A stretch of 64,000 nt of DNA from Roseivirga sp. E12 (lineage in GTDB: Bacteria; Bacteroidota; Bacteroidia; Cytophagales; Cyclobacteriaceae): NCBI RefSeq assembly GCF_017592825.1, contig NZ_JAGFMD010000010.1, positions 1-64,000 on the forward strand, read 5' to 3'. The notes beneath the pieces are model-generated. The model had not been told where the DNA came from. It ran no database searches and worked only from the letters and a program-made list of their open reading frames with translations. Position 1 is the first letter of the stretch, and the number at the start of each line of letters is the position of its first letter. The translations under genes were made by a program, and so were the position numbers. Below, in pieces: positions 1 through 20,698 of the stretch.

Positions 1-3000
1 TTGATACCATCGCTTGCCTTGACTTCTAATACATAGGCATTATCAGTATTTCCATCTGCTGGAGACTCAAAGTCTGGTGAGCTTTTGAAGGTCACTGCTC
101 CTGTCGATCCATCAATATCGAATAAGCTTTCGTCATTACTGGTACCAAGACTATAAGTAATTGCGTTGGCATCTGTAGCTACAGCAGTGTAGGCCGTACC
201 CGTTCCATTCTCTACAAAGCTGGCTGTAGTGGCCGAAGTAAAGACAGGGTCAGTGTCATCAACATCTGTTACGGTAATGGTTACTGTCAGGGAAACTGTA
301 TTGACACCATCGCTTGCTTTGACTTCTAGCACATAAGCATTGTCAGTATTAGCATCTGCTGGAGACTCAAAGTCTGGAACAGCCTTAAAGGTCACTGCTC
401 CTGTAGATCCATCAATATCGAATAGGCCTTCGTCATTACCCGTGCCCAAGCTATAAGTAATCGCATTGGCATCTATAGCTACAGCTGTGTAAGCTGTGCC
501 TGTTCCATTCTCTACAAAGTCTACGATAGTGCCTGAGGTAAGCACAGGCTTGATATCATCAATAATAGTAATTGAAAAGGACTGCTCAGAAGTATTACCA
601 CCTTCATCTGTGGCGAGTACGGTCACCAAATGATCACCAGATTGTCCAAGAGGGTTACCACTAAGAATATTTTTCCCTGATGAAACTCTCCTAATTCTAT
701 GATTCAAAAGGTCAGCAACAATTACATTACCATATGGGTCTAAAGCTACTCCTCTAGGAATACTAAAACTGGCGTTAGTCCCAATCTCATCAGAAGCACC
801 TCTAATCCCTGAACCTGCTAAAATTTCAGCAACTCGGCCATCTACCTTGACTATATGTTGTTTTGTTTGATCAGCCATAAAAAACACCCCTTCATCACTA
901 ATGGCCAGCCCGGATGGCGATACCAACTCAAAAGGGGCTCCCTTGATATCAATCACTGGATTTTCATTGTTCCCAAGAGCTGTTGTTACATTGCCTTCTG
1001 AATCAATTTTTCTCAACCAACTTGTCAGACCTTCTATGATATACAGGTTACCGTCTTTATCAATGGCCATTGATCTTGGCAACGAAATGGAGGCACTTTG
1101 CCCCTGCCCATCTCTGGATCTGAAAACTCCATCACCAGCAAAAACTGTAACCTCACCACTTAGATCAACTTTAAAAACCTGATGACCAGCTTCATCGGCC
1201 ACATATACTGTCCCATCACTAGATACAGCTACATCAACAACTGACTTAAATGGTGATGATCCACCTCCTTCAGTAGCACCTGCAATTGTACTCACAACAC
1301 CTATAGGAGATATCTTCCTGACAGATTTGTTCCTTGAATCGGCTACATAGACATTACCGTCTTTGTCCACCGCTATTCCTAAAGGGTCATTAAAGGTGGC
1401 TTGACTTCCAGAGCCATCATTATTCCCAATTTGGCCTGTGCCCGCAAGAGTAGAAACAACACCGTTCACATCTACTTTTCGAACCGCATGATTCCTACTA
1501 TCGGAAACATAGATATTACCGACCTTATCTGTTGCAACGTCAAAGGGCCGCTCAAAACTCGCGGCAGATCCAAGACCGTCATCAAAGCCCTGTCTCGTAC
1601 CACCCGCAAATGGTTGCACTGAGTTTTCATTTGCAGCTTTGTATATAATTCCGGTGGTATAATCAATCACAAAGAGGTTTCCACTCTGATCAAACGCTAA
1701 GTTTCTTGGGACCTCAAACAAACCTCCGGTAGTTATATGGCCAGATACAGTACCATCCAAAGAAATTTTTCGGACAACAGCATTGCCGGCATCGGTAACA
1801 TAGATATGATCATCAGCTCCATAGGCAAGCCCATATGGAAAACGGAAGGAAGCGGCTTGACCTACTCCATCAGTAAATCCCTCTACGCTACCTGCTAAGT
1901 CTGAAACAACTCTACCTGGAGTAATTTTCCTGATTCGGTGAGAGGTCACATCACTGGCATAAAGATTCCCTTCCTTATCAAATGTTAGCCCCCCAATACG
2001 TCCAAATGTTGCTACTTCATGACTACCATTCGCAGTACCAAAGTCATTTGGATCTCCCACGAACAAACTTACTTCTCCAACTGGAGTGATTTTCCTGATT
2101 GTGAATTGGTCAGCTACATAAATATTGTCCTGAGCATCAATTGCTATGGCCCTTTGGTTTCGAAATGATGCATTTACACCAATACCGTTTATTGAACCTG
2201 ATTCACCTGAACCGGCAAAGGTGGTCACATTGCCGGCTTGGTCAATTTTTCTAACCCTAAGTGTGGCTGCATCGGCTACAAACAGGTTATCCTTACTATC
2301 CACAACTACTCCAATAGGTGCATTGAACATTGCTTCCTCTTTCGGTCCATCCTTAAAGCCTCCAATACCCGTTCCAGCAAAAGTTGTCACTAGACCATCG
2401 GAAGTGATTTTGACAATCCTATCATTCTCTTGATCTGCCACGTAAAAGTTACCCTTTGAATCAAAGGCTCCTCCTCCTGGAGTGTTTAACGAAGCTTCCA
2501 ATCCAGTACCATCTTTAATAGTACTAGTCAAATTCCCGGCAACAGTAGTCACCTCCCCAAGAATAGAAGATTTCAAACTTAGCCAATCTGGTAAATTAGA
2601 TGTGGATAGTGTAACCCTTTCACCTTCTAAGTCCGAAACCTCAACAAAGTACCTGTACTCCTCACTTTCTTTCGCATTAGTAACAGGGTTGGATGTAAAC
2701 ACCGGTTTTACATCACTTACATTATTCACTTTGATGGTCACAAGTTGTTTTGTGGTATTTCTTCCATCAGTTGCTATAATTTCTAAAATGTAACTGTTAT
2801 CTGTATTTGCATCCTTCGGGTCTTCAAAATTTGGTGACGATTTGAAGGTAATCTCACCACTTGCAGCATCGATATTTAAATGTGCTTCATCATTACTCGT
2901 ACCTAAACTGTAAGTTATGGCATTGACATCAGTAGCCATGGCTTGATAAGCTGTACTAGTGCTATTTTCCAAGAAGTCTGATGTAGCTACGGAAGTAAAC

Positions 3001-6000
3001 ACAGGTGCAATATCATCCAAAGGTCTGACATTGATAGTAACCATTTTAGGTTCCACATTACTGCCGTCATTTGCTATTACCTCTAGAACATAAATGTTAT
3101 CAGCATTTGCATCTGATGGAGTATCAAAGACAGGAGGAACCTTGAACGTCACATCCCCATTGATTGCATTAATACTAAATAGTCCTTCATCATTCGCAGA
3201 CCCTAGGCTATAGGTAATAGTATTGGTATCAGTAGCCAAAGCCGTGTACGCCACCGTGGCACTTTTCTCTGTGAAGCTAATCGTCTCCCCAGAAGTAAAA
3301 ACTGGCTTTGTTACATCATTGATTTTGATTGCAAAACGTTGCTGGTCTTGACCACCAAAATCATCAGAAACAACTAGATCTACGATTTGATTACCTTTTT
3401 GGACAATTGCTGAGCCGCTTAAAGTATATTCTTTAGATATTTTTCTTAGACGAAAGTTGTTCAAATCGGCCACTATAATGTTATCGGCATTATCTACTAC
3501 TATAAAAATTGCTGCATTAAATAATGCAGAATCAGCCGAACCGTCTTGAAAACCAGAAGTACTTCCGGCAATTGTCGTCACCTTACCAGAAGAATCTATT
3601 TTTCTAATATTGTGTTTACTTCCATTCTGGGTGACATAAATATTATCATTTGAGTCGATAGCAATACCGAAAAGATTACCCAATTTGGCACTTGTTCCTT
3701 GCCCATCTTGGTCCCCAAATTCTGAGCCTGCAAAGGTTATTACAGTCCCATTATTGTCAATTTTTCTAATTCTATTATTTAAATAATCAACAACAAAAAT
3801 ATTGTCTTGGCTATCAACAGTTACTCCTCTAGGTATTGAAAATCTGGCTTCATTTGAAGTACCATCCTGAAAACCCTGAACAGAACCTGCAATTGTCGTT
3901 ACAACTCCGACTTGGGTGACTTTTCGAATGAGATGATTTCCTTCATCAGCAACAATAATGTTACCTGAATTATCAATTGCCAAATCACTAATTTTTTTGA
4001 ACGTTGCTTGACTTCCTTGACCATTGACGAAATTATCACCAGGACCACCAGCAATAACCCTTCTTTCTCCTCTTGAGGATATTCTTTCGATCCGAAAATA
4101 CCTTTCGCTGTTTGATCTATACTCACCCGCAACAATTAGGTTACCATGATTATCAGCTGTGATAGCGGTCATGTCCAACTGAGTTCCAGTCACGCCTCCG
4201 CTAGGATCTGTTTCTCTTCCAGTCAGAGACACAAAGCTTGTAACTAAACCCTGCGGTGTGACCTTTTTTAACATTTTTGTCCCTAATTCAGTTACAAACA
4301 CATTTCCTTCCCTGTCCGTAGTAATATCAGATAGGCTCCTAAATTTAGCCTCAGAACCTAAACCGTCTTGAAAACCCCTGACACTTCCTGCTAGAGTTGA
4401 TACTGTATAATTGGTTGTCAGTTTCAACCAGCTGGGTAAAGAGGAGTTACTCAGTAACAACCTGTCGAAATCTGGGTCATTGAAAGACAATGGGTAATTG
4501 TAGTTTTCATTATCATTCACAAATAATAATGGAGAAGAGCTTATTGAAGGAGCATTATTCGGTCTTATAAAATAGTATTCTCTGGTTCCTATAGGGTTCA
4601 AACTGGAGACCTGATTATTTTCAAGATCTACAATGTCATTTCCCGGTAGAAGATTCAATTCCAATTTTCCTGACCCATTGGGAACATCCACATTTACATA
4701 GTAGACTGAATCTTCAAAAACATCTTTGACTACAGAAGAAATTGTCCCTCCTAGGCCTGTCAAACCAAAATCCTCTGCGCTTACATTCTTGACTTTTTCA
4801 TTAAACTTAACTCTAAAGCCAACTCTCTTTGCCTTTATGAGTTGATCTGCCGGGTTGATTCTAACAATTTCACTCAATGACGGACTATTTGTATCCTTCA
4901 CTTCCAGTGTGAAGTCTTGGCTTGCAGATTGACCTTCCAGGTTAGAGGCGGACAGAGAAATATTATAAGTCCCCACTTGATTAAAAGGGTTACCTGTTAG
5001 CACCTCCACAAGTCTGAACCTTCTCAATTTAGCGTTGAGCTTATCAGGGACTATAAGATCTCCAGCCATAGTCAATTGAATATCTGCAGGACTGGAAAAT
5101 GTAGCGTCCGTACCGATACCATCTAAATCACCTACCTCATTGCCTCCAGCCACCGTCACCACCGTACCAGTTGTAGAAATTGACTTAATTCTTCCATTTC
5201 CTCCCAGCTGTGCAACGAAAACCACTCCATCTGAATTAACAGCTACCCCGTTCGGTAGATCGAACTGGGCCTCTAAAGCCATTCCATCAAGATCACCTTG
5301 AGTTGAACCCGCTATGGTCGTAACCTCCGCATTTGGGTTAATTTTCCTGATTTTATGATTCCTGGAATCGGCCAAATACAGATTATCATCTTTATCAATG
5401 GCGATATGCATAGGAGCATCAAACTTAGCATTGAGACCTATTCCATCTGCAAACCCTCCGTCTAAGTCAAACAGTACAGGTCCGTTTCCTCTATTGATAA
5501 ACCTTTCAATTCCTTTTCCCGCGAAGGTTGTGACATTTCCTATTGGATCAATTTTTCTGATGTTCTGAGCCCTGCTGTCTGAAACAAAGAGGTTTCCTTG
5601 ACTATCAAAGGCCAGGCCATGGGGCCAAACGAATGAAGCCACATTTGCCCCTCCATCTTTAATATCAAAGCCAACAGGTCCTACACCGGCAAAAGTGGTA
5701 ACCACACCAGCCTTAGTGACTTTCCTAATACGACTATTTCTCGTATCCGCAACATAGATATTTCCATCTGGCCCAATCGCTATTGCTGATGGCTCAGCAA
5801 AAGATGCTGACGTGCCTACCCCATCAGCAAAGTCGAAATTTCCAGAACCTGCTATTACTGTGATAGTTCCAGCCTGATCAATTTTCTTAACCTGATGATC
5901 CTCAAGAATATAAAAGTCACCATTTGTATCTTGTGTGATAGCAGTTCCCCCACCATTGGAACTGGTTACCTCAGCAAGAGATTTGAGGCTAAGCCATGGT

Positions 6001-9000
6001 GGCAAGTTGGTCCCACTAATTGATGATAAGTTCCCGTTTGGACTAGTAGTCTCAATAAGGTACCTGTAGTTTTCGTCTCTTGAGACAGTGGTCGTAGGTT
6101 CTGAAATAAAGGACAAACTCCCTTCATCAACATTAGTTACAGTAATGGAAATCTCCTGAGTTGCGGTATTCGTACCATCACTAGCTGTCACATCTAAGAT
6201 GTAGACATTATCGGAATTGGCATCAACAGGGTTTTCGAAATCCTGTTGAGTATTAAATCTTATTGAACCATCAACCCCATTAATATTAAAATTTGACTCA
6301 TCCTTCAAGTTACCCAGACCATAGATTAGCGCATTGGCATCAGTTGCCTTAGCAGTATACACTGGCAATGTTGTGGACTCTTTAACTGAGACGCTCAAAC
6401 CAGAGGTAAAAACAGGTTTAGTCAAATCATTCACAGTAATCGTGAAGGTCTGCATCACAGCAGCACCCTCAGCATCATTCACTTTGAGAGCTACTGAGTG
6501 ATCACCAGACTGGCCAACAGCACTGCCCGTTAACTTGGCTTGACCCAGTGTTACCTTCCTTATCCTATTATTACCAGCATCGGCAATTAGTAGGTTTCCT
6601 TCCTTATCTATAAGAATACCATCCGGACTGTTAAAAAGTGCGTTTGGTCCTGTGCCATCGGCATAGCCTCCAATATCATTACCTGCGACCGTGGTGACTA
6701 TTCCTCCTGGAGTAACCCTTCTAACATTTCCTCTTCTGGACTCTGTCACATAGATATTACCCTCTTTATCCACCACAATGCCCTGAGGTCCATTAAGAGA
6801 CGCTGCAGTCACAATACCATCTTCTGACGGGTGGTTTTGAGAACCGAGGTTGTCAGGTAGGCCAGCAATAGTTGTGACAACACCACTTGGAGTGATCTTA
6901 CGAATGCTGAAATTACCCCAATCTGCAACAAACACATTGCCCTGATTATCAACAGCCACATCTTGCGGAAATGAAAAACCTGCTGCAGTCCCCGTACCAT
7001 CTTGGTAAACGAAGCCGCCCTGGCCAGCCAAAGTGGCAACTTCACCTGATGGACTAATTGTTCTTATTCTACTATTGAAACCATCTGCTACATAGATTAC
7101 TCCATTAGCGTCAATCGCTAGGCCTCTAGGAGAATTGAACATAGCTGAGGTCCCCTGACCATCTTGAAAACCTCCATTACTTCCAGCGAAAGTGCTTACC
7201 TGTCCACTCTTTGTGATTTTCCGAATTCTATTATTTCCAGAATCAGATATGTAGAGATTATCGTCTTTATCAATCACTATCGCCCTTGGACCATTGAAAG
7301 TCGCTGACGCTCCGGTACCATCAGCAGACCCTTGCTGCCCATTGCCAGCAAAAGTGGTAATAGCGCCATCCACAGCCATTTTTCTTATTGCATTGTTCTG
7401 AGAGTCTACGATAAAAATATTTCCCTCAGAATCCATAGCAACATCACGTGGACTGGAAAAAGCTGCCGACAGCCCATTTCCATCTAACAGTTTCTTCTCA
7501 CCAGACCCTGCAATGGTGGTTGTGACACCATCAGGCTGCGAGTCTAAAGTCAACCAGCCCGGGAGGCTCTCCGCGGAAACCTGAAGGCGTTCACCGTCCT
7601 GATCTTCTACTTTTATGACATATTCATAGTTAGCATTGTCATTTACAGAAGTTACCGGAACGGAAGTAAAAGAAGGATCCTGATCATCCACATTGCTCAT
7701 TAAGGCACGTACAAGGATATTGGCAGAATTAGATCTGTCATCAAAAGCATAAATCTGTGCCAGATAGGAGTTGTTTTTATCGCTATCCAATGGGTTTTCA
7801 AAGTCAGGTGCATTCTTAAATGTCAAAACACCTGTCGATTGATCTATAGTGAAAAAAGACTCATCGAAGTTAGACCCAAGAACATACTTTATATTATCGC
7901 TATCCTGGGCTTTGGCGGTAAAGACTGTTCCCGCGCTATTTTCCTCAACCAATGGAAAAATGTTTGGCAAAGGCATGAATACAGGCCCAGTATTTGAAAT
8001 ATTGACAGTGAAACTCTGTATAGCCTTTCCATTGTTTGTATCAGTAGCCTCAATCGTGACTTCATGACTCCCAGCTTGTCCTTTGGTATTGCCTATCAAA
8101 ACTGGTAGTGTGCCGGAAATCACCATTTTCCTAATCACGCGACTACTCGACTCGGAGATAAAAAGATCACCTTTACTATCCAACACAATTCCGAAAAGCC
8201 CATTAAAGGCAGCTTCTGAGCCCGTTCCATCAGTTTTGGCATCGACACCTGATCCTGCTAAGGTTGTGACTTTTCCATCTACAGTAACTTTTCTAATTCT
8301 TTTGTTCCCGAAATCGGCCACATACAAGTTACCAACAGCATCTGAGCTTAAGTGTGCGGGATTGTCAAATCGAGCAGCAGCTCCAGTATCGTCTACATAG
8401 CCTTCGACACCATTTCCTGCAATGGTTGTGACAATTCCAGTAGGCGTAATCTTTCTGATACTATGATTATTATTGTCTGCCACATAGAGATTATCTGAAC
8501 CATCAATCGTTATTCCAAAAGGTCTGTTAAAAGCGGCACTCGTCCCTACTCCGTCTATTAATTTTCTTTCTCCTGAACCAGCAAATGTCGTTACCAACCC
8601 AGTGGGTGTTATTTTTCTAATACGATCATTTCCATGGTCTGCAATAAAAATATTGCCTTTACTATCAACAGCTAAATCCTTTGGCTCACTAAATTGAGCT
8701 GCAGCCCCTGTCCCATCCATATAACCTCGAACTCCAGTTCCCGCAATAGTTGTCACAACGCCACTCGGAGTAATTTTGCGAATGGAGCTGGTAGTATTAT
8801 CTGAGACATATAAGTTACCCAAAGCATCCGAAGCCATTCCAATTGGTCCTGAAAAGCCAGCGTCACTGCCCGTTCCGTCCTTTTCGGTAAAGTTTGATGC
8901 TGATCCTACAAAAGTTGTAACCTCACCAGTTGGAGATATCTTACGAATTGTTTTAGAGGTCAACTCAGCGACATAAATATTATCAGACTGATCAATTGTC

Positions 9001-12000
9001 AGACCCAACGGCAGGTTAAATTGAGCAGCCAACCCTGTACCATCAGAGGTGCCTGACACTCCTGAGCCTGCAAAAGTTGTCACTGTACCAAGAGGCTGTT
9101 GTTCTAAACTCATCCAACTTGGTAAAGTACTTGAGGAAACGGTGGTAACATCGTTTTCAGGGTCATTAACCTTGATTTCATATCGGTAACTAGTGTTGTC
9201 GGTAATTGAAGTGACAGGGTTAGATGTGATTACCGGCTCGGCATTTACTATTTGTGCGATAACACTTATGGTAACTATTTGACTCGTAGATCTAGTACCA
9301 TTGTTAGCTATTACTTCTACCAAGTATTTATTGTCATTATTGGAATCCTGCGGACTCGAAAAGTTCGGGGGTATTTTGAAATTAAGATTTCCATTTGAAG
9401 CATCTATATCAAAAAGGGCTTCATCATTATTAGTTCCTAATTGATAAGTGATGGCCTTTGTATCTGTGGCAATAGCCTGATAAGCTGTACCAGTGGTCAA
9501 TGTTAAGAAGTTTTGTGAAAGCCCAGACGTAAATACAGGCGCGAAATCACCATTGGCAAAAACTGATAGGGTGAACTCTTGTTTTGTCATAGCACCTTGT
9601 TGATCAGTAGCCTCAATCACAATATTATGATCTCCGGCCTGCCCACCGGTGTTTCCGTTCAAAGTGATGCCTGAGTGAGATATTTTACGAATTGATGAAT
9701 TCCCTCGGTCAGTAACATAAACCACACCATCAGCAACCTCAATTCCTTGTAACGAGAAGAACTCGGCCTCGCTCCCTTTTCCATTTCTAAAGGCGGCCTG
9801 ACCTGTTCCTGCCACTGTGGTCACCCTTCCTGATGGACTTATTATTCTAATGACATTCCCTCCGGCTACCCAAAGGTTACCTGATTTATCAATATCAATA
9901 TCATCAATGAGCACAAAAGAGGCACTTGTACCTAATCCATCTAAATTTTGTGAAGAGGTTCCGCTTCCTGCAATGGTAGTAACAATGCCGACAGGAGTTA
10001 TTTTGCGTATACGGCTATTGCCTCGGTCTGCCACATATAAGTTGTCATCTTTATCGATTGTTAAGCCACTAGGACCTGTGAAAAGGGCTTGAGAACCGTT
10101 TCCATCTTGATGTCCTGATGTGCTACCGGCAAAAGTTGATACAATACCGGATGGTGTAATCTTTCTAATTCTATGATTCAATTGATCTGCAACAAAAAAG
10201 TTGCCGTTAGAATCGATGACTAGACCATAAGGATTGCTAAACAGCGCATCTATACTATTTCCATCGGCAAAACCACGCCCCTCCTTTCCAAAAACCAAGG
10301 TAGAGGTACCATCAGAGTTTAGTTTTCTGATGACATTGCTTAGTACATCTGTGTAGAAGATCTGATCCGTATCATCGATAAATATATCAAATACGGATCC
10401 AGTAAAACCCTTTGAAAAGGTGGTTACCAGACCTTCAGGAGTTATTTTTCTAATTCCAGTAGATTGATCTGTCACATAAAGATTCCCATTAGAGTCGACA
10501 GCAGACCGATTAGGAAATGAGAAAGTAGCATTAGTACCTAACCCATCATTACCTTGAGACCCAGAAACGATGGCTTTTCCTGCAACGAATTCAACAGTCC
10601 CTCCAGTTGTAACACGCCTCACCTTTCTCGACCCATCCGTGAAATAAATATCACCATTGGAACGGATTGCCAAACCTCGAGCACCTTCTATACTGGCAGT
10701 GCCAATAGGGCCATCAGTGCCTGTGTTACTTCCGTTTCCAGCCACAGTACTCACAGTACCATCAGGTGTAACTTTTCTAACCCTAAAGTTATTGGCATCT
10801 GAAAAATAAAGATCCCCCGATGAAGTAAACATTAATGCTGAGACACTACCAATCTGGGCGTTGGTTCCCACTCCATCTTGAAAGCCAGGAGTTCCAGTAC
10901 CAGCAAAAGTGACACCCACACCTTGAGACGTCACTTTAGTTATCAAACCATTAGATTCACCAAAGTAAAGATTGTCATCCTTATCAATAGCCATACCAAG
11001 CGGATTTCGTAGTCGGTCGATACTTCCATTCTTTATCACATCTCCATTTCCACCACCAAAAAACGTTGTAACATTTCCAGCTTGATCAACCTTTTTAATT
11101 CTAGTGGAAGTAGTAACAAACAAATTTTCGGAACTGTCAAACGCAAAGTCATTAGGCAAGTCGAATTGACCATTTACCCCTTTGCCATCCAATAACCCAC
11201 TTCTACCGTTTCCGGCAACGGTAGTTACATTTCCGTTCGTATCTATCTTGCGAATGGCATGATTATTACGGTCAACCACGTATAGATTGCCATTGGAGTC
11301 AAACACGACATCTGTCGGGTTATTAAACCCTGCCATGAGTACAGGTCCATCTTTAAAAGAGGCTAATCCTGTACCCGCAAAAGTAGATACAGTTCCGTCT
11401 GGCGATACCTTTCTGATTTGGTTATGCAATGCATCGGCTACATATAAGTTACCCGCATTGTCGAATGTCAACCCTTGAGGTTGATTAAATACAGCATCAT
11501 TCGCGGAACCATTCTTAAAATTACTTGGTAGCTTACCTGCCAAAGTTGTAACCTCTAAATCTGGTTCTATATCAATCCAGCCAGGTTTGGTCGTTACGTT
11601 TATAAAAAGTCCAGTATTATCCGCGTCTGTGGCCTTTGCCTCATACTTGTAGTCAGTGCCTTCATTTATGCCTGTGACTGATGTGGTTGAGAATATGGGA
11701 TTAAATTCCTGCACATTGGCCACCTGGATTTGTATTGTTATACTGGATGTATTAGCACCATCAGTAGCCTTGATCCCTAACACATAGACATTGTCTGCAT
11801 TTGCATCCGCGGGAGCCTCGAAGTCAGGAGCTACTTTGAAAGTAACCACCCCTGAATTACCATCAATATTAAATTGACCTTCGTCATTGCTAGTTCCAAG
11901 GCTGTAAGTGATTGTGCTCGCATCTGTGGCCGAAGCAGTGTACACTGTACCAGTACCATTCTCTAGAAAACTCGTGACCACAGATGAAGTAAATACTGGC

Positions 12001-13052
12001 GCCTGTCGATCAAGGTTAACTCTTCTTATTACGTGACTAGCCTTATCAGCCACAAGAAAATGACCTTCAGAGGTTTTCACAATTCCTCTTGGAAAGTTAA
12101 AACGTGATGACAACGGAGAGCCATTATCAACTCCCTGCACAGCATTACCTGTAATCGTAGTCACAAAACCATCTTGGGAAATATGTCGAATCGAATGCCT
12201 ATCAACAACGTAGATTACATCTCCTTCATCCAGTAATAAGCCATTCATAAAACCAAAGCCTGCCACATCCTTGTTCCCATCTGTGTGGGTTGTTGCTGTT
12301 GCACTGCCAACAATAGTTGATAAGGTACCTGTAGTAAGGTTCAATCGTCTAACAGCATGATAGGTGACAATTATCAAGTCCCCTTTGGAGTCGAAGGCAA
12401 AGTCAGTTGGCACATCCAGAGTAGCTGTTAAAACATTCCCATCTAAATAACCACTCGTTCCTGTCCCAGCCACTGTGGACACATTTCCATTAGAATCAAT
12501 TCTTCTGACTCTATAATTCAGAGCATCAGCCACATAAATATTGTTGCTATTATCTACCAAAACCTCTACGGGTTTATTGAATAAAGCACTTGATGAGCTA
12601 CCGTCTTGAAACCCCGCGACATTACCAGCTATGGTCGTAACAACACCAGCAGGAGTAACCTTTCGAACAGCATGATTATCCTTGTCTGCTACGATGATAT
12701 TCCCGTTACCATCGAGGGCAATTCCTCTTATCTGATTAAAACGAGCCGATGCACCAGTGCCATCGATGAAACCAACATCTCCAGAGCTACCGACAAAATC
12801 CGATACTATTCCGTTAATATCAATGGTCTTAATAGATGACCCGTTTTCTTCAGCCAGATAAATTACTCCTGCCGAGGTGATTGCCATATCTATCGGCTCA
12901 TTAAATTGGGCACTCAGTTTTTGTCCATTCACATCCCCTCTAGTGGAAGTAGTACCAGCAAATTTCTCAACAGATAAGACCTTAGGGATGCTGTTCTGAG
13001 CTATTAATGAAGTGCTGATAAATGAGAAAAAGAGTAATTGAAATAATTTCAT
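1..13052 (-). CDS. Giant secreted NHL-repeat / cadherin-like / split Ig-like protein (C-terminus beyond the window)
   Basis: The frame is open from the ATG at 13052 to base 3 (4350 codons) and still running at the edge. It starts with a signal peptide (MKLFQLLFFSFISTSLIAQ); an in-frame ATG 15 nt upstream is possible. Reading N to C: NHL x6 (about 12990-12020), cadherin-like (12010-11735), half CADG/He_PIG domain, NHL x12 (11565-9680), second half, cadherin-like (9550-9250), then NHL x6 blocks at 9090-8115, 7540-6545, 5980-5010 and 4425-3425, and NHL x12 at 2560-665, each between two CADG halves. Spacers are cadherin-like except at 4890-4560, where a SwmB-like Ig module (GFRVKFNEKV) is used; two cadherin-like modules lie at 3310-2720 and two at 560-1. 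NHL units are about 54 residues with the pattern VTTxAGxG, DGxGxxAxF, GNLYVADxxNxRIRKI. Such proteins are secreted or surface-bound in Bacteroidota; a C-terminal sorting domain would be outside this window. Ligand unknown. Confidence 0.9.
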   Translation of the reverse strand, partial: MKLFQLLFFSFISTSLIAQNSIPKVLSVEKFAGTTSTRGDVNGQKLSAQFNEPIDMAITSAGVIYLAEENGSSIKTIDINGIVSDFVGSSGDVGFIDGTGASARFNQIRGIALDGNGNIIVADKDNHAVRKVTPAGVVTTIAGNVAGFQDGSSSSALFNKPVEVLVDNSNNIYVADALNYRVRRIDSNGNVSTVAGTGTSGYLDGNVLTATLDVPTDFAFDSKGDLIIVTYHAVRRLNLTTGTLSTIVGSATATTHTDGNKDVAGFGFMNGLLLDEGDVIYVVDRHSIRHISQDGFVTTITGNAVQGVDNGSPLSSRFNFPRGIVKTSEGHFLVADKASHVIRRVNLDRQAPVFTSSVVTSFLENGTGTVYTASATDASTITYSLGTSNDEGQFNIDGNSGVVTFKVAPDFEAPADANADNVYVLGIKATDGANTSSITIQIQVANVQEFNPIFSTTSVTGINEGTDYKYEAKATDADNTGLFINVTTKPGWIDIEPDLEVTTLAGKLPSNFKNGSANDAVFNQPQGLTFDNAGNLYVADALHNQIRKVSPDGTVSTFAGTGLASFKDGPVLMAGFNNPTDVVFDSNGNLYVVDRNNHAIRKIDTNGNVTTVAGNGRSGLLDGKGVNGQFDLPNDFAFDSSENLFVTTSTRIKKVDQAGNVTTFFGGGNGDVIKNGSIDRLRNPLGMAIDKDDNLYFGESNGLITKVTSQGVGVTFAGTGTPGFQDGVGTNAQIGSVSALMFTSSGDLYFSDANNFRVRKVTPDGTVSTVAGNGSNTGTDGPIGTASIEGARGLAIRSNGDIYFTDGSRKVRRVTTGGTVEFVAGKAIVSGSQGNDGLGTNATFSFPNRSAVDSNGNLYVTDQSTGIRKITPEGLVTTFSKGFTGSVFDIFIDDTDQIFYTDVLSNVIRKLNSDGTSTLVFGKEGRGFADGNSIDALFSNPYGLVIDSNGNFFVADQLNHRIRKITPSGIVSTFAGSTSGHQDGNGSQALFTGPSGLTIDKDDNLYVADRGNSRIRKITPVGIVTTIAGSGTSSQNLDGLGTSASFVLIDDIDIDKSGNLWVAGGNVIRIISPSGRVTTVAGTGQAAFRNGKGSEAEFFSLQGIEVADGVVYVTDRGNSSIRKISHSGITLNGNTGGQAGDHNIVIEATDQQGAMTKQEFTLSVFANGDFAPVFTSGLSQNFLTLTTGTAYQAIATDTKAITYQLGTNNDEALFDIDASNGNLNFKIPPNFSSPQDSNNDNKYLVEVIANNGTRSTSQIVTISVIAQIVNAEPVITSNPVTSITDNTSYRYEIKVNDPENDVTTVSSSTLPSWMSLEQQPLGTVTTFAGSGVSGTSDGTGLAAQFNLPLGLTIDQSDNIYVAELTSKTIRKISPTGEVTTFVGSASNFTEKDGTGSDAGFSGPIGMASDALGNLYVSDNTTSSIRKITPSGVVTTIAGTGVRGYMDGTGAAAQFSEPKDLAVDSKGNIFIADHGNDRIRKITPTGLVTTFAGSGERKLIDGVGTSAAFNRPFGITIDGSDNLYVADNNNHSIRKITPTGIVTTIAGNGVEGYVDDTGAAARFDNPAHLSSDAVGNLYVADFGNKRIRKVTVDGKVTTLAGSGVDAKTDGTGSEAAFNGLFGIVLDSKGDLFISESSSRVIRKMVISGTLPVLIGNTKGQAGSHEVTIEATDTNNGKAIQSFTVNISNTGPVFMPLPNIFPLVEENSAGTVFTAKAQDSDNIKYVLGSNFDESFFTIDQSTGVLTFKNAPDFENPLDSDKNNSYLAQIYAFDDRSNSANILVRALMSNVDDQDPSFTSVPVTSVNDNANYEYVIKVEDQDGERLQVSAESLPGWLTLDSQPDGVTTTIAGSGEKKLLDGNGLSAAFSSPRDVAMDSEGNIFIVDSQNNAIRKMAVDGAITTFAGNGQQGSADGTGASATFNGPRAIVIDKDDNLYISDSGNNRIRKITKSGQVSTFAGSNGGFQDGQGTSAMFNSPRGLAIDANGVIYVADGFNSRIRTISPSGEVATLAGQGGFVYQDGTGTAAGFSFPQDVAVDNQGNVFVADWGNFSIRKITPSGVVTTIAGLPDNLGSQNHPSEDGIVTAASLNGPQGIVVDKEGNIYVTESRRGNVRRVTPGGIVTTVAGNDIGGYADGTGPNALFNSPDGILIDKEGNLLIADAGNNRIRKVTLGQAKLTGSAVGQSGDHSVALKVNDAEGAAVMQTFTITVNDLTKPVFTSGLSVSVKESTTLPVYTAKATDANALIYGLGNLKDESNFNINGVDGSIRFNTQQDFENPVDANSDNVYILDVTASDGTNTATQEISITVTNVDEGSLSFISEPTTTVSRDENYRYLIETTSPNGNLSSISGTNLPPWLSLKSLAEVTSSNGGGTAITQDTNGDFYILEDHQVKKIDQAGTITVIAGSGNFDFADGVGTSASFAEPSAIAIGPDGNIYVADTRNSRIRKVTKAGVVTTFAGVGPVGFDIKDGGANVASFVWPHGLAFDSQGNLFVSDSRAQNIRKIDPIGNVTTFAGKGIERFINRGNGPVLFDLDGGFADGIGLNAKFDAPMHIAIDKDDNLYLADSRNHKIRKINPNAEVTTIAGSTQGDLDGMALEAQFDLPNGVAVNSDGVVFVAQLGGNGRIKSISTTGTVVTVAGGNEVGDLDGIGTDATFSSPADIQLTMAGDLIVPDKLNAKLRRFRLVEVLTGNPFNQVGTYNISLSASNLEGQSASQDFTLEVKDTNSPSLSEIVRINPADQLIKAKRVGFRVKFNEKVKNVSAEDFGLTGLGGTISSVVKDVFEDSVYYVNVDVPNGSGKLELNLLPGNDIVDLENNQVSSLNPIGTREYYFIRPNNAPSISSSPLLFVNDNENYNYPLSFNDPDFDRLLLSNSSLPSWLKLTTNYTVSTLAGSVRGFQDGLGSEAKFRSLSDITTDREGNVFVTELGTKMLKKVTPQGLVTSFVSLTGRETDPSGGVTGTQLDMTAITADNHGNLIVAGEYRSNSERYFRIERISSRGERRVIAGGPGDNFVNGQGSQATFKKISDLAIDNSGNIIVADEGNHLIRKVTQVGVVTTIAGSVQGFQDGTSNEARFSIPRGVTVDSQDNIFVVDYLNNRIRKIDNNGTVITFAGSEFGDQDGQGTSAKLGNLFGIAIDSNDNIYVTQNGSKHNIRKIDSSGKVTTIAGSTSGFQDGSADSALFNAAIFIVVDNADNIIVADLNNFRLRKISKEYTLSGSAIVQKGNQIVDLVVSDDFGGQDQQRFAIKINDVTKPVFTSGETISFTEKSATVAYTALATDTNTITYSLGSANDEGLFSINAINGDVTFKVPPVFDTPSDANADNIYVLEVIANDGSNVEPKMVTINVRPLDDIAPVFTSVATSDFLENSTSTAYQAMATDVNAITYSLGTSNDEAHLNIDAASGEITFKSSPNFEDPKDANTDNSYILEIIATDGRNTTKQLVTIKVNNVSDVKPVFTSNPVTNAKESEEYRYFVEVSDLEGERVTLSTSNLPDWLSLKSSILGEVTTVAGNLTSTIKDGTGLEASLNTPGGGAFDSKGNFYVADQENDRIVKITSDGLVTTFAGTGIGGFKDGPKEEAMFNAPIGVVVDSKDNLFVADAATLRVRKIDQAGNVTTFAGSGESGSINGIGVNASFRNQRAIAIDAQDNIYVADQFTIRKITPVGEVSLFVGDPNDFGTANGSHEVATFGRIGGLTFDKEGNLYASDVTSHRIRKITPGRVVSDLAGSVEGFTDGVGQAASFRFPYGLAYGADDHIYVTDAGNAVVRKISLDGTVSGHITTGGLFEVPRNLAFDQSGNLFVIDYTTGIIYKAANENSVQPFAGGTRQGFDDGLGSAASFERPFDVATDKVGNIYVSDSRNHAVRKVDVNGVVSTLAGTGQIGNNDGSGSQATFNDPLGIAVDKDGNVYVADSRNKSVRKISPIGVVSTIAGATEGGGSSPFKSVVDVAVSSDGTVYVADEAGHQVFKVDLSGEVTVFAGDGVFRSRDGQGQSASISLPRSMAIDKDGNLYIIEGLTSWLRKIDSEGNVTTALGNNENPVIDIKGAPFELVSPSGLAISDEGVFFMADQTKQHIVKVDGRVAEILAGSGIRGASDEIGTNASFSIPRGVALDPYGNVIVADLLNHRIRRVSSGKNILSGNPLGQSGDHLVTVLATDEGGNTSEQSFSITIIDDIKPVLTSGTIVDFVENGTGTAYTAVAIDANAITYSLGTGNDEGLFDIDGSTGAVTFKAVPDFESPADANTDNAYVLEVKASDGVNTVSLTVTITVTDVDDTDPVFTSATTASFVENGTGTAYTAVATDANAITYSLGTSNDESLFDIDGSTGAVTFKSSPDFESPADGNTDNAYVLEVKASDGI

Positions 13053-13290
13053 AATATCTTGAAACATACATCCTATTTTGGATTTTAAAATAAGCTGGAA
13101 TGCATCAAACAGCAAACTCTTCGTTTTAACAATTTTGATTTTTATTTAATCTATTTTAAGAAGTGATGAATGGTAAATTGAAAAATCATAGAATTAAAAT
13201 CTCCACAAATCCAAGCCTGGCTAAGCATTTTTCTTCATTAGAATTAAACTTTCATCTTCATTGAACAAATCTCTTTCAACTCTTGTTAAT

Positions 13291-13348: not shown

Positions 13349-13756
13349 ATGAAAGTAGCGGTTTTTAGAAAGGAGCATTTTAATGCTGCCCACAGATTGC
13401 ATAATCCGAATTGGTCTGAAGAAAAGAACGAATCCATCTTCGGGAAGTGTAACAACAAATACTATCATGGTCACAATTATGAACTGATAGTAAAAGTAAG
13501 TGGAGAACCTGATCCTGACACCGGATATGTCTATGACATGAAGGTTTTAAGTGATCTAATCAAAAAGCATGTCTCCAGTAAGTTCGATCACAAGAATTTA
13601 AACCTTGATGTTCCTGAATTCAAGGAACTCAACCCTACCGCTGAGAACATTGTCATCGTGATTTATAACATTCTAAGAGATAAAATCGAGTCTAACCTAG
13701 ATTTGAAAGTGACACTTTATGAAACAGAACGAAACTATGTTGAATACCCAGCTTAA
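13349..13756 (+). CDS. 6-pyruvoyl-tetrahydropterin synthase / 6-carboxytetrahydropterin synthase family protein
   Basis: This 135-residue protein has the T-fold family layout. Zinc ligands are H15 (NAAHRL), H40 and H42 (YYHGHNY); the catalytic Cys is C34 and the acidic substrate anchor lies in YETERN near the C-terminus. The family acts on 7,8-dihydroneopterin triphosphate, the product of FolE, which is encoded by the next gene overlapping by 38 nt. The spacing here is C-x5-HGH. As I recall, that spacing belongs to true PTPS (tetrahydrobiopterin-type) enzymes, while bacterial QueD has C-x3-HGH. The product could therefore be a pterin rather than the queuosine precursor, although the presence of tgt in the window keeps the QueD role open. 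Family call is firm, exact reaction is not. Confidence 0.85.
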   Translation: MKVAVFRKEHFNAAHRLHNPNWSEEKNESIFGKCNNKYYHGHNYELIVKVSGEPDPDTGYVYDMKVLSDLIKKHVSSKFDHKNLNLDVPEFKELNPTAENIVIVIYNILRDKIESNLDLKVTLYETERNYVEYPA

Positions 13757-14414
13757 CGGTTTGACAGTAGAAGAAATTGGTGATGAGCACATAGGTACCA
13801 GCTATGACACTCCCCTGAAGGAAGGCGCATTCGACATGGATGACGAGCTCAAAATGAATTTGATCGAAGATAAGTTCAGAGACATTATGGAAATAATGGG
13901 CCTAGACTTAACAGATGATAGCTTAAGCGGAACCCCCAAGAGAGTGGCTAAAATGTATATTCAGGAAATTTTCAGCGGACTGAATCCTGCTAATAAACCC
14001 AAGGTGGCACTCTTCGAAAACAAGTATCAGTACAACGAGATGCTTGTTGAAAAGGACATTACCTTCTACTCTAATTGTGAGCACCACTTTGTACCAATCA
14101 TTGGTAAAGCTCATGTAGCGTACATTTCTAGTGGAAAGGTAATCGGCTTATCGAAGATCAACCGTATCGTCAACTATTATGCAAAAAGACCTCAGGTTCA
14201 AGAACGACTTACCGTTCAAATTGCGAATGAGCTAAAGAGCATTTTAGAAACTGACGATGTAGCAGTAATCATTGATGCAGAACACTTATGCGTATCCTCT
14301 CGTGGGGTGCAAGATGTCAATAGCAGTACAGTCACAGCACAATTCGAGGGTAAGTTTAAAGAGGAAGGCACCAAAAACGAGTTATTGACCTACATCAGTA
14401 ACAAATTAAAGTAA
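13719..14414 (+). CDS. folE: GTP cyclohydrolase I
   Basis: FolE opens GTP to 7,8-dihydroneopterin triphosphate and formate, the first step to folate, pterins and queuosine. The 231-residue protein shows the zinc and active-site motifs: SNCEHHFVPI with C120, H122 and H123, and EHLCVSSRGV with C191, plus GLSKINRIV and QERLT. The first 40 or so residues are a non-conserved extension, usual for the family. The start lies inside the upstream gene (38 nt overlap), and a second in-frame ATG at 13737 would still overlap it, so translational coupling is likely. The substrate-product relation with the upstream PTPS-family gene makes this a two-gene pterin operon. A hairpin with a T-run follows the stop. 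Confidence 0.95.
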   Translation: MKQNETMLNTQLNGLTVEEIGDEHIGTSYDTPLKEGAFDMDDELKMNLIEDKFRDIMEIMGLDLTDDSLSGTPKRVAKMYIQEIFSGLNPANKPKVALFENKYQYNEMLVEKDITFYSNCEHHFVPIIGKAHVAYISSGKVIGLSKINRIVNYYAKRPQVQERLTVQIANELKSILETDDVAVIIDAEHLCVSSRGVQDVNSSTVTAQFEGKFKEEGTKNELLTYISNKLK

Positions 14415-14429
14415 AGCCACTCCTAACCA

Positions 14430-14474
14430 TCAAGTGAATCACTTTTAACAACTTAGTTTGATTCACTTGATTTT
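14430..14474 (+). terminator. Probable Rho-independent terminator of the PTPS-folE operon
   Basis: Perfect 12-bp arms TCAAGTGAATCA (14430-14441) and TGATTCACTTGA (14459-14470) with a 17-base loop are followed by TTTT. The AT-rich stem and long loop make it weaker than the other terminators in the window. Confidence 0.55.
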
Positions 14475-14506
14475 GAATTCTTAATCATGGATTCACATTA
14501 AAAGCT

Positions 14507-14514
14507 TACCTTTG
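14507..14514 (+). promoter_or_regulatory. Bacteroidota-type -7 box (TACCTTTG) upstream of typA
   Basis: TACCTTTG fits the TAnnTTTG consensus of the Bacteroidota primary sigma factor. It ends 22 bases before the ATG at 14537, giving a short leader. No clear -33 TTG is found at the usual spacing. Confidence 0.5.
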
Positions 14515-14536
14515 CGGCTTCAATTAGAAAGCATCC

Positions 14537-16342
14537 ATGCAAAGCATTAGAAATATCGCCATTATAGCACACGTTGATCATGGCAAAACCACTCTGGTAG
14601 ACAAGATTATACACGCCTCAAAACTCTTTAGGGAGAACCAAGAGTCGGGCGACCTCATTCTAGATAATAATGATTTAGAAAGAGAAAGAGGGATTACTAT
14701 TCTTTCCAAGAATGTTTCCGTCACTTACAATGGTGTTAAGATTAACATTATTGACACTCCTGGTCACGCAGACTTTGGTGGCGAAGTAGAACGTGTTTTA
14801 AAAATGGCGGATGGTGTCCTATTATTAGTAGATGCTTTCGAGGGTGCTATGCCACAAACTCGTTTTGTACTCAGCAAAGCTTTAGCCCTTGGTCTTACAC
14901 CTATTGTAGTGGTTAACAAGGTGGACAAAGAGAACTGCCGACCTGATGAAGTTCATGAGCAAGTATTCGACCTCATGTTCAACTTGGATGCAACGGAAGA
15001 ACAGCTTGATTTTGAAACCATGTATGGTTCCTCAAAAATGGGTTGGATGAGTGATGACTGGCAAAAGCAAACTGACTCGATAACTCCCCTATTGGACAAG
15101 ATCATTGATGTGATCCCTGAAGCGCCATCTCCTGAAGGAACACCTCAGTTTCAGGTGACATCACTAGACTATTCTTCCTTTGTAGGTCGAATCGCTATTG
15201 GTAGAGTTTATCAAGGAACAATAGAAGAAGGTAAATCAATGGGCTTGACAAAAGCCGATGGTTCCATTCAACGCGTTAGAATAAAAGAACTTCAAGTATT
15301 TGAAGGCTTAGGCAGACAAAAAGTAAGCTCAGTAAAAGCGGGTGATTTGTGTGCTATTGTAGGCCTTGAGAACTTCGAAATTGGTGATACGCTCACAGAT
15401 TTTGAAAGTCCAGCTCCACTTGAACGTATCTCCATCGATGAGCCTACTATGAATATGTTATTTACTATCAATAACTCACCAGGTTTTGGTAGTGAAGGTA
15501 AATTCGTGACCTCTCGTCACCTGAGAGATCGTTTAATAAAGGAAACTGAGAAGAACCTAGCACTTCGTGTTGACCCAACTGATTCTGAAGACAAGTTCTT
15601 GGTTTATGGTCGTGGGATTCTTCACTTGTCAGTTTTGATTGAAACGATGAGACGTGAAGGCTACGAATTGATGGTAGGACAACCTCAAGTAATCTTTAAA
15701 GAAATTGATGGCCAGCGTTGCGAGCCTATTGAAACACTTGTTGTTGATGTACCAGATGCGGTTTCAGGCAAAGTAATTGAACTTGCTACTCAGCGTAAGG
15801 GCGAGTTGAAGATCATGGAGCCAAAGGGCGATCAGCAGCACTTAGAGTTTGATATCCCATCGAGAGGGTTGATCGGCTTAAGAAATAATGTCTTGACTGC
15901 CACAGGCGGTGAGGCTGTGATGAATCATAGGTTCAAAGAATACCAACCATTTAAAGGTGAGATTAAAGGTCGTATCAATGGATCATTGATCTCAATGGAA
16001 AATGGACCTGGAACACCTTATTCAATTGACAAGCTTCAAGACAGAGGTTATTTCTTTGTTGCACCAGGAGAAAACCTATATACAGGTCAGGTAATTGGCG
16101 AGCACAATCGTGAAAACGATATTGTTGTAAACATTCAGAAAGGGAAGCAACTGACCAACATGCGAGCTTCTGGTTCGGATAGTAATTCTAAGATTGCACC
16201 TCCAAGAAGATTCTCATTAGAAGAATCCATGGAATACATCCAAAAAGATGAATATCTTGAAATCACTCCTGCGAGCATTCGCATGAGAAAAATTCACCTT
16301 GATGAGCATACAAGGATGAAGATGGCCAAGACCTTGGCTTAA
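14537..16342 (+). CDS. typA: Translational GTPase TypA/BipA
   Basis: TypA is a ribosome-binding GTPase of the EF-G family involved in ribosome assembly and stress adaptation. The 601-residue protein has the full family length. G1 is [10 protein letters not shown] (residues 11-20), G3 is DTPGHADF, G4 is NKVDKE, and the switch region contains RERGITI. Domain II (about 205-300), the EF-G domain III/V-like parts (about 305-480), and the TypA-specific C-terminal domain with [13 protein letters not shown] and [12 protein letters not shown] are all present. It stands alone with its own -7 box upstream and a strong terminator directly after the stop. Confidence 0.98.
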
Positions 16343-16362
16343 GTCAAATTCAAAAACACATT

Positions 16363-16396
16363 AAAAAGGAGCGAATCTTAATTCGCTCCTTTTTTT
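16363..16396. terminator. Strong bidirectional terminator between typA and the SDR gene
   Basis: Stem GGAGCGAAT (16368-16376) and ATTCGCTCC (16381-16389) with the 4-base loop CTTA, flanked by an A-run on the left and a T-run on the right. It can serve typA on the plus strand and the converging gene that ends at 16457. A second weaker hairpin, GCCCCAA/TTGGGGC, lies at 16437-16456 without a T-run. Confidence 0.9.
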
Positions 16397-16456
16397 ATAA
16401 ATCCGTCTTCTTCAACTGACGCTTAGCTTTCCAATAGCCCCAAAGTAACTTGGGGC

Positions 16457-17326
16457 CTATGACTTTTTTCCTCTACCGGCTTCTAGCATATCCCACATCG
16501 CTTGTGGTACTTTTTCGAGGTGACTGAACTCTCCTGCCCCCATTAGCCATTCTCCGCCATCTATGGTCACTACCTCACCATTTACATAGGAAGAGAAGTC
16601 TGACATCAAATAGGCTGCAAGATTGGCAAGCTCCTGATGTTCACCTACTCTTCCCACGGGTACTAACTTGGCCGGGTCAAATTTATCTATCAAGTCGCCA
16701 GGTAATAAGCGACTCCATGCGCCCTCCGTTGGGAACGGTCCCGGGGCAATGGCATTCAGTCTGATTTTGTATTTAGCCCATTCTACGGCTAAAGAACGTG
16801 TCATTGCCAACACTCCCGCTTTTGCACAGGCAGACGGTACAACATATCCAGATCCCGTCCATGCATATGTGGTTACTATATTTAGAACAGTACCAGCTTG
16901 TTCCGCTGCAATCCACTTTTTACCAAGGGCAAGCGTGAAATTCGTTGAACCCTTTAAAACGATATCAATGATGGTATCAAATGCTCGATTAGAGAGCCTT
17001 TCTGTAGGACTGACGAAGTTTCCAGCCGCGTTATTCAAGAGACAGTGAATCTGTCCAAAGCGCTCTTCAGTCTTTGCTAGAACATTCTCTACCTGCTCAT
17101 AGTCTCTTACATCGCATTGAACAGGCAAAACTTTACCTCCGGTTTCAGCTTCAAGTTCTTGAGCCGCCTTTTCCAAGACTTCCATCTTACGACTAGTAAT
17201 CACAAGGTTGGCACCAAGTTCAAGAAAATACTTACCCATGGCCCTTCCGAGCCCGGTTCCGCCACCCGTAACTATAATCGTTTGTCCCTTTAAGGCATCA
17301 TCTTTTAGCATTCCATCTGTTCTCAT
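16457..17326 (-). CDS. SDR family oxidoreductase, 2,4-dienoyl-CoA reductase-like
   Basis: A 289-residue short-chain dehydrogenase/reductase. The NADP-binding glycine motif TGGGTGLG is at residues 20-27, the NAG-type motif appears as LNNAAGN, the C-terminal APGPFPTEGA motif follows, and the protein ends with the usual VTIDGGEWL strand. The active-site segment reads PSACAKAGVLAMTRSLAVEW: the catalytic Lys is present but the usual Tyr of YxxxK is Ser. This is what I recall of the dienoyl-CoA reductase (DECR) branch, which reduces 2,4-dienoyl-CoA in beta-oxidation of unsaturated fatty acids. An alternative start at residue 6 (Met) is possible. No beta-oxidation neighbour is visible, so the substrate is inferred only from subfamily features. 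Confidence 0.85.
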   Translation of the reverse strand: MRTDGMLKDDALKGQTIIVTGGGTGLGRAMGKYFLELGANLVITSRKMEVLEKAAQELEAETGGKVLPVQCDVRDYEQVENVLAKTEERFGQIHCLLNNAAGNFVSPTERLSNRAFDTIIDIVLKGSTNFTLALGKKWIAAEQAGTVLNIVTTYAWTGSGYVVPSACAKAGVLAMTRSLAVEWAKYKIRLNAIAPGPFPTEGAWSRLLPGDLIDKFDPAKLVPVGRVGEHQELANLAAYLMSDFSSYVNGEVVTIDGGEWLMGAGEFSHLEKVPQAMWDMLEAGRGKKS

Positions 17327-17363
17327 AACAAAGCGTTAAATCAGTGGCTTTAAGTTAGAAAAT

Positions 17364-17382
17364 ATTATGCATGCAGCATAAT
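17364..17382. promoter_or_regulatory. Perfect inverted repeat between divergent SDR and OmpA-like genes
   Basis: ATTATGC (17364-17370) and GCATAAT (17376-17382) are separated by ATGCA. The element lies in the divergent promoter region, 38 bases upstream of the SDR start and 78 bases upstream of the OmpA-like start. It could be an operator or a hairpin; it is followed by TTTTTATA on the plus strand. Confidence 0.3.
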
Positions 17383-17460
17383 TTTTATACTTCCCGATCA
17401 GCACATAACATATGACAATCTCATGCGAATTATTCATATTTGTACAAGTAATTTTATCTC

Positions 17461-18414: not shown

Positions 18415-18445
18415 ACAATTATCTTAAGCACAAGATTTATAGTCC

Positions 18446-18712
18446 ATGTCAGATCGAAATGAGTTTGCAGACCACAGCATAGAAGAGCTTAAACAAAAGC
18501 AAAAGAAGTTCAAGGCAATTCAGAAAGTTATCTTGATTCTGTGCCTTATTACATCTTCAATTGCTATAGGGGTTTCTATTTGGAAAGAAACCAGCGAACT
18601 GTATCCAGTGATTGGGTTAACCCTTATTATCGGTATTGGCTACCCTATCATGGCTTTTGGCCCTATGCAGAAAAAGATACAGGCGGAAATTGACAGTCGA
18701 TCTCAAGCTTAA
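18446..18712 (+). CDS. Small two-helix membrane protein, unknown function
   Basis: I do not recognise this 88-residue protein. It has a charged N-terminus (EELKQKQKKFKAIQ), two hydrophobic segments (about residues 27-46 and 53-72) and a short charged tail. It probably inserts as a helical hairpin in the inner membrane. It lies 31 nt after the OmpA-like gene and may be cotranscribed. Its stop codon interlocks with that of the converging DUF819 gene in the shared four bases TTAA at 18709-18712. Confidence 0.75.
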   Translation: MSDRNEFADHSIEELKQKQKKFKAIQKVILILCLITSSIAIGVSIWKETSELYPVIGLTLIIGIGYPIMAFGPMQKKIQAEIDSRSQA

Positions 18713-19962: not shown

Positions 19963-20009
19963 GGAGTGGTTTTCAAAACACCAATAATAGGAGTTTTTCC
20001 TGAAAGATA

Positions 20010-20573: not shown

Positions 20574-20698
20574 ACCATAGGATTTACCCTGAAATTAAGG
20601 CAAACAAGTCATTAGACAGTCTGATGGTGGAGTTTTTTGGCGAATTGCAACCATAGGAAACAAGAATCCCATATATTCGGATTTCAAAATTTTTCAGA

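Follow-up and report, generated by a model that had tools for sequence, protein, structure and literature searches.

NHL propellers nested within split He_PIG domains of a giant protein from Roseivirga

The protein analyzed here is encoded at the beginning of a contig of Roseivirga sp. E12 (NZ_JAGFMD010000010.1, here C1; the window is the whole stretch of DNA analyzed, C1:1-64000, 64,000 nucleotides). It contains six modules, each of which is virtually certain to be a single immunoglobulin (Ig)-like domain of the He_PIG/CADG type with an NHL propeller inserted in the loop that joins its PxWLxL and LxG strands. The explanation that we favor, with a probability of about 0.65, is that these nested propellers hang as ligand-binding heads off a surface rod secreted by the type IX pathway. 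The nesting and its recurrence are sure, and the sideways display of the propellers is probable.

The gene is a single minus-strand open reading frame (ORF; window 3-13115) that is open at the contig start and yields a translation of 4350 residues. The likely start is the ATG at window 13052, followed by a stretch that, by eye, resembles a signal peptide, then by a free NHL propeller and by cadherin-like repeats alternating with the six interrupted Ig-like domains. The N-terminal propeller (residues about 19-350) lies outside any split domain, its six blade matches preceding the first half domain. In the uncut ORF, Pfam recognizes 19 families, including 31 NHL stretches (PF01436, 593.5 bits, over the cut-off), seven cadherin stretches and He_PIG stretches. 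A sequence-only reading of this DNA had proposed that, six times, a half domain is followed by a block of NHL repeats and then by the missing half. This arrangement is borne out by pattern, spacing, profile scores and recurrence, and the half-domain motifs quoted in that reading, of the PSWLxL or PGW type, are present in the ORF. Pattern and spacing analysis identifies six first halves, each with PxW[LMI]xx at its end, which alternate strictly with six second halves, each with LxGxxxxQxG at its start; they lie at residues 489/1131, 1310/1652, 1830/2174, 2350/2685, 2872/3211 and 3487/4130 of the translation (N-half/C-half). Together, the six pairs span window about 552-11714. The features are as follows, with window coordinates and, in brackets, the evidence; "joined" denotes the He_PIG score of the two halves after removal of the insert, and insert lengths are approximate.

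12003-12998, minus strand: N-terminal NHL propeller of six blades, outside any split domain, residues about 19-350 (translation; six blade matches)
11568-11714, minus strand: module 1, He_PIG N-half ending in KPGWIDI (joined 23.9 bits against a cut-off of 24)
9663-11567, minus strand: module 1, insert of 635 residues with 12 NHL blades (spacing, blade count)
9549-9662, minus strand: module 1, He_PIG C-half starting with LNGNTGGQAGDH (pattern, joined score)
9105-9251, minus strand: module 2, N-half ending in LPSWMSL (joined 46.3 bits)
8100-9104, minus strand: module 2, insert of 335 residues with six blades (spacing, blade count)
7986-8099, minus strand: module 2, C-half LIGNTKGQAGSH (pattern, joined score)
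7545-7691, minus strand: module 3, N-half ending in LPGWLTL (joined 44.1 bits; alone, model positions 2-56)
6534-7544, minus strand: module 3, insert of 337 residues with six blades, the last closed by the first strand (AlphaFold2 strands)
6420-6533, minus strand: module 3, C-half LTGSAVGQSGDH (pattern, joined score, AlphaFold2)
5985-6131, minus strand: module 4, N-half ending in LPPWLSL (joined 38.7 bits)
5001-5984, minus strand: module 4, insert of 328 residues with six blades (spacing; seven matches by model, six by eye)
4887-5000, minus strand: module 4, C-half LTGNPFNQVGTY (pattern, joined score)
4419-4565, minus strand: module 5, N-half ending in LPSWLKL (joined 25.7 bits; alone, no Pfam match)
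3423-4418, minus strand: module 5, insert of 332 residues with six blades (spacing, blade count)
3309-3422, minus strand: module 5, C-half LSGSAIVQKGNQ (pattern, joined score)
2574-2720, minus strand: module 6, N-half ending in LPDWLSL (joined 46.5 bits; alone, model positions 2-57)
666-2573, minus strand: module 6, insert of 636 residues with 12 blades (spacing, blade count; weak structure model)
552-665, minus strand: module 6, C-half LSGNPLGQSGDH (alone, model positions 61-95)
3-551, minus strand: cadherin-like repeats, cut off by the contig boundary (probable continuation on contig C2, bases 1-882, with a type IX sorting tail)

Deletion of the NHL block makes the halves score as one He_PIG domain (PF05345, cut-off 24), as the sequence-only reading had anticipated: the matches of modules 1 to 6 cover nearly the whole model, and five of the six pass the cut-off, the sixth reaching 23.9. 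Nor are the halves separate complete domains. On their own, they match complementary pieces of one 96-position model: two of the three first halves tested cover positions 2-56 or 2-57 and the sole second half tested (module 6) covers positions 61-95, which places the cut at about positions 57-61. Of 28 joined domains taken from other proteins, all 28 match He_PIG with an E value of 0.001 or lower. The contiguous chain expected of a He_PIG domain is found only in 10 intact copies in relatives; in the window, 328-636 residues intervene. A profile built from the 28 joined domains leads to contiguous CADG-type domains in 12 distinct solved chains, including endofucoidanases, SraP and alpha-dystroglycan, and in the two endofucoidanase alignments shown, no more than a few residues separate WL from LsG. 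The uninterrupted version of the domain occurs in relatives, once in an ORF that also carries nested copies (locus L067).

It is very improbable that the flanks constitute independent small domains, or Ig-like appendages of the propeller, instead of a single interrupted domain. Such a view would draw on the He_PIG stretches that Pfam reports unjoined in the uncut ORF and on the units of other proteins left uncut, just 38 of 73 of which match He_PIG at all, but the halves complement each other on one model and score together, intact copies of the same He_PIG subfamily are found in the same genus and even in the same ORF, and co-variation between the two halves is tighter than that of either half with the intervening propeller. 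The nesting itself explains why Pfam reports only half domains in such proteins. Chance or misreading is ruled out by the profile scores and by recurrence in over 100 modules from related genomes. Because the module recurs in independent assemblies, it is unlikely to be an assembly artifact; the assembly does break at the contig end.

The recurrence was tallied from first halves in 43 chosen loci and the window (n=140; to be counted, a first half had to score at least 25 bits and extend to model position 44), of which 123 are nested, 10 are intact and 7 are neither. NHL-like sequence follows these 7 first halves as well: three are truncated where the locus or ORF ends, and in the other four the blades are weak and the second half lies 303, 320, 335 or 630 residues further on. 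The loci were chosen by a match to the nested junction or to the first half, and 123 versus 10 is not a frequency. The first round (20 loci and the window) yielded 82 nested modules, together with two intact and two nested copies in one ORF of L067 and one intact copy in L070; 23 further loci were added for the final tally. No other type of insert was found at the He_PIG seam among the 140 first halves, from loci chosen by nested-type queries. A single ORF contains up to ten modules (L058).

The size of the insert is quantized. In all 123 nested modules, the gap between the halves measures either 293-373 residues (119 modules) or 634-649 residues (4 modules), the latter consisting of modules 1 and 6 of the window, with 12 blades each, and two modules of L139, an ORF of 3136 residues with double-length inserts of 645 and 649 residues and 11-12 blades. 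The blade recount covers the first 82 of the 123 modules: six blades were detected in 77 inserts and twelve in 2, and the remaining 3 (five, five and seven) have six by eye. Module 4 of the window has a degenerate first blade and one blade with an insertion. Nested propellers account for 491 of the 542 blade matches in this first set.

Blades resemble each other more within a module (mean score 95.8) than between modules (91.4 for the same position and 88.0 for other positions). Between loci, the best blade match falls on the same position in 18.8% of cases, compared to 16.7% for an even choice among six; within a locus, the share is 30%. The derivation of all modules from a single ancestral propeller copied with its frame is unsupported, blade position being only weakly recognizable between loci. 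For the idea that a twelve-blade insert consists of two fused single propellers, blade-position scoring was uninformative, position 3 being the best match for all 24 blades.

AlphaFold2 modeled the native unit 3 (residues 1787-2217), with 73 related rows, at a predicted local distance difference test score (pLDDT) of 95.5 and a predicted template modeling score (pTM) of 0.89. The strands follow in the order four Ig strands, then one, five groups of four, three, and finally three further Ig strands. The insert accordingly comprises 1+20+3 = 24 strands, that is, six four-stranded blades, with the first strand completing the sixth blade, and it is linked to the Ig strands through residues 53-56 and 383-385 of the unit (four and three residues, respectively). 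In a Foldseek comparison of this model to the PDB, the 50 matches listed of 230 (E 0.001 or better) are all NHL-type or designed propellers.

These features suggest how the module could be built. The propeller would be closed by its own first strand, so that both of its ends exit from one blade, and these ends would run directly into two Ig strands via the four- and three-residue links. Inserted at an Ig-domain seam, the propeller would leave the rod uninterrupted, and the ring would lie off-axis: the chain of Ig and cadherin domains would continue as a rod, with each propeller hanging from it on two connections. In this model, the propellers are likely to project sideways.

At its distal end, the gene runs into the contig boundary. 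The start of contig C2 (L020, 1-882) encodes a cadherin repeat with 96% identity over 91 residues, together with an ASH-like domain and a Por_Secre_tail domain (44.4 bits). The assembly break lies inside near-identical tandem cadherin-like repeats (window 1-551). The same genome encodes SprA_N (511 bits) and has 23 Por_Secre_tail matches, 21 of these over the cut-off, and several complete ORFs of relatives end, by eye, in similar tails. Pointing to type IX cargo are the Por_Secre_tail domain on C2, provided that C2 is the continuation, the presence of SprA_N and the apparent signal peptide; the protein would be exported by the type IX system to the cell surface, where the Ig and cadherin domains would form a calcium-stiffened rod.

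As for the role of the propellers, we consider it somewhat probable that the protein binds ligands at the surface and that the propellers are putative heads of an adhesin. The four most variable blade columns (10, 24, 26 and 41; 3.7 bits or more; 628 nested blades) fall in the D-A and B-C loops, which we take to lie on one face of the ring; this is a weak hint of a predicted variable binding face. It is rather unlikely that the nested units are real but the propellers serve as structural spacers or protease-resistant bulk. The repetitive blades, with their greater likeness within modules, would suit spacers, as would the failure to identify a catalytic or known binding site in the propellers, yet a spacer need not be a closed ring, whereas the blade number is fixed at six or twelve, and propellers and split-domain inserts elsewhere are binding modules. 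Improbable as well is the display of enzymes with lactonase- or lyase-like folds on the rod. Pfam and NCBIfam do place matches of SMP-30/gluconolactonase-like and virginiamycin B lyase-like type on the propellers, but any six-bladed NHL-type ring is expected to draw cross-matches of this kind, and the Vgb(A) score is 22.5 against a cut-off of 600.

Several points weigh against our favored explanation, that of nested propellers as ligand-binding heads on a type IX-secreted rod. We infer both function and surface location, and the contig break leaves the continuation of the gene on C2, into a type IX sorting tail, at the level of the probable. The joined module 1 falls 0.1 bit below the He_PIG cut-off, and the first half of module 5 alone has no Pfam match. 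For the second half and the propeller, co-variation does not exceed what membership in the same protein accounts for (p 0.16; 122 modules). The signal of variability is small, with columns of the A-B and C-D loops at 3.4 and 3.0 bits. Neither outcome that the sequence-only reading had set as a refutation was encountered, and its expectation that the halves fold together agrees with the high-confidence model of both halves; their packing as one sandwich, however, we infer from model confidence and strand order and not from coordinates. Finally, the model of the twelve-blade unit (module 6) is weak (pTM 0.54, six rows) and does not discriminate between two rings and one larger ring.

The closest parallel comes from the RTX adhesins of Vibrio and Aeromonas, in which, according to passages of PMC12077191 and PMC10865825, split Ig-like domains project ligand-binding domains. 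As in AhLap of Aeromonas hydrophila, FrhA of Vibrio cholerae and MpIBP, a discontinuous Ig-like domain resides in what appears to be a giant rod-like surface protein, and in the window modules, too, another domain emerges from the interrupted one. The same passages place the ends of the inserted domain together, so that it projects sideways, and have the Ig domain of FrhA split after a single strand. In contrast, the insert described here is an NHL propeller, the He_PIG/CADG frame is split near the middle, there are up to ten repeats per ORF, and the likely continuation carries a type IX tail, in a member of the Bacteroidota. None of the 19 Pfam families of the ORF is an RTX-repeat family, and the likely C-terminus is a type IX sorting domain. 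The best reading, by analogy, is that the protein would function as the split domains of those adhesins do, without being an RTX adhesin itself.

The impression that nothing similar is known therefore needs to be narrowed: split Ig-like domains are known in RTX adhesins, but none was found described with a propeller, in type IX cargo or with such repetition. The word "propeller" is absent from the main text of PMC12077191 and PMC10865825, and the literature searches turned up no account of a He_PIG domain with an NHL propeller inside it, an earlier mention in a review of split domains (doi 10.1002/prot.26689) being possible.

Other proteins share parts of the architecture. The NHL domains of teneurin and bacterial teneurin-like proteins (9ifo, 9pt5) are the closest solved propellers (Foldseek rank 1, 32% identity) and the best sequence matches. 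In the 60 chains listed of the 69 matched by sequence, however, no best stretch passes profile positions 52-384, so that the match covers the propeller only and not the Ig halves. In two giants of another Bacteroidota family (L104 and L105), six NHL propellers, of six blades each, alternate in tandem, without nesting, with domains of 84-88 residues, which we take from their sequence pattern to be IPT/TIG-like; no He_PIG halves were detected in L104 or L105. BapP of Pseudoalteromonas tunicata is a surface adhesin with a beta-propeller and tandem cadherin-like and Ig-like repeats; in contrast to the window protein, it has one five-bladed N-terminal propeller, and the part of PMC12153261 that deals with it describes no nesting. 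The six-bladed propeller of BPP43_05035 from Brachyspira pilosicoli is a proven adhesin and, according to a passage of PMC11444514, a single six-bladed lipoprotein, unlike the window protein.

If our explanation holds, the split-domain principle of type I-secreted RTX adhesins extends to type IX-secreted giants of the Bacteroidota, with a propeller as the pendant and with up to ten repeats, and it provides a simple rule for spotting likely binding heads in such giant proteins. The intact and interrupted versions of the domain form a natural set in which to test how a fold accommodates the insertion of a whole domain.

The evolution of the module was approached through co-variation (122 of the 123 nested modules) and a tree. 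Across proteins, the first and second halves co-vary more than the common ancestry of entire proteins would explain, with r 0.484 compared to 0.354 +- 0.033 after within-protein shuffling of modules (p 0.001), making the Ig-frame halves the most coherent pair despite some 330 residues between them. Co-variation of the first half with the propeller is weak (p 0.025), and none was detected between the first half and the last blade (p 0.29; the same 122 modules). Also co-varying are the first half and first blade (p 0.004), the last blade and second half (p 0.002), the first blade and second half (p 0.007), and the first and last blades (p 0.004). Therefore, the modules travel partly as units, yet the Ig frame is the most coherent pair. 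In the tree, which includes 132 short rows (122 nested and 10 intact) over 86 columns and has unsettled bootstrap values, the intact copies require five changes, at least three of which well-supported branches make unavoidable. Two copies from the one ORF of L067, one nested and the other intact, are sisters (99/82).

A tentative proposal that goes beyond the nesting is that the split He_PIG domain is a reusable socket, with whole propellers gained or lost repeatedly at exactly one seam, blades reshuffled, and ring size kept at six or doubled to twelve, giving Roseivirga diversified binding heads on interchangeable rods. The forced gains or losses, the sister copies of L067, the within-module likeness of blades and the failure of the second half to track the propeller are consistent with it.

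The related contigs belong to Roseivirga (FE80, UBA6061 and R. echinicomitans), and nested modules were found in 12 of the 19 Roseivirga genomes searched. A profile of the junction (last blade plus second half) at E 1e-8 matches in 27 of 79 related genomes; in the 12 matching genomes outside the genus, the best locus of each has blades but no half domains. Weak matches point to additional, more diverged nested modules in genomes G002 and G013, where the first halves of L039 and L047 are diverged and followed by blades, the second halves being missed by the profile. The module is probably commoner than counted.

Outside Roseivirga, the nested module appears to occur rarely: in Polaribacter metagenome-assembled genomes (MAGs; three modules in L116 and one in L122), in a Cyclobacteriaceae MAG (one, L117) and, in the same order, in genome G762, with two modules and a sorting-type tail. 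In the tree, L116 stands beside Roseivirga modules of G008 and G010, under an open fork, a placement compatible with transfer from one lineage to another. Across a sample of 395 from the phylum, none of the listed matches beyond the genus spans the junction, and 294 genomes of another family gave no match at a strict threshold, in a set without a positive control. The genome surveys score just 13-17 candidates per genome at large n and hence undercount; the survey that found G762 missed G002, which holds a nested module.

No relative of the C junction was found among viral contigs. The 50 matches listed from a viral fold search are mostly NHL or other propellers, with one giant-virus protein that has an Ig name, a pithovirus "Putative Ig domain protein" (rank 4) with 474 columns aligned to the unit at a low template modeling score of 0.48.

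Uninterrupted or unnested relatives were also encountered. A Planctomycetales MAG has an ORF of 3864 residues (L123) in which about ten intact He_PIG-like domains follow one another, without propellers, and long ORFs in six Roseivirga genomes (L127-L132), which seem orthologous, each contain one intact domain of the same subfamily. In the Roseivirga sp. E12 genome itself, an ORF of 705 residues (L021, contig C31) combines three cadherin-like repeats with one terminal six-blade propeller that is not nested. Among the seven neighboring ORFs scanned (window 13719-22090), no adhesion operon lies beside the gene; these neighbors look like housekeeping genes, namely those for GTP cyclohydrolase I, a BipA-type GTPase, a short-chain dehydrogenase, an OmpA-family protein, a DUF819 protein and a transporter.

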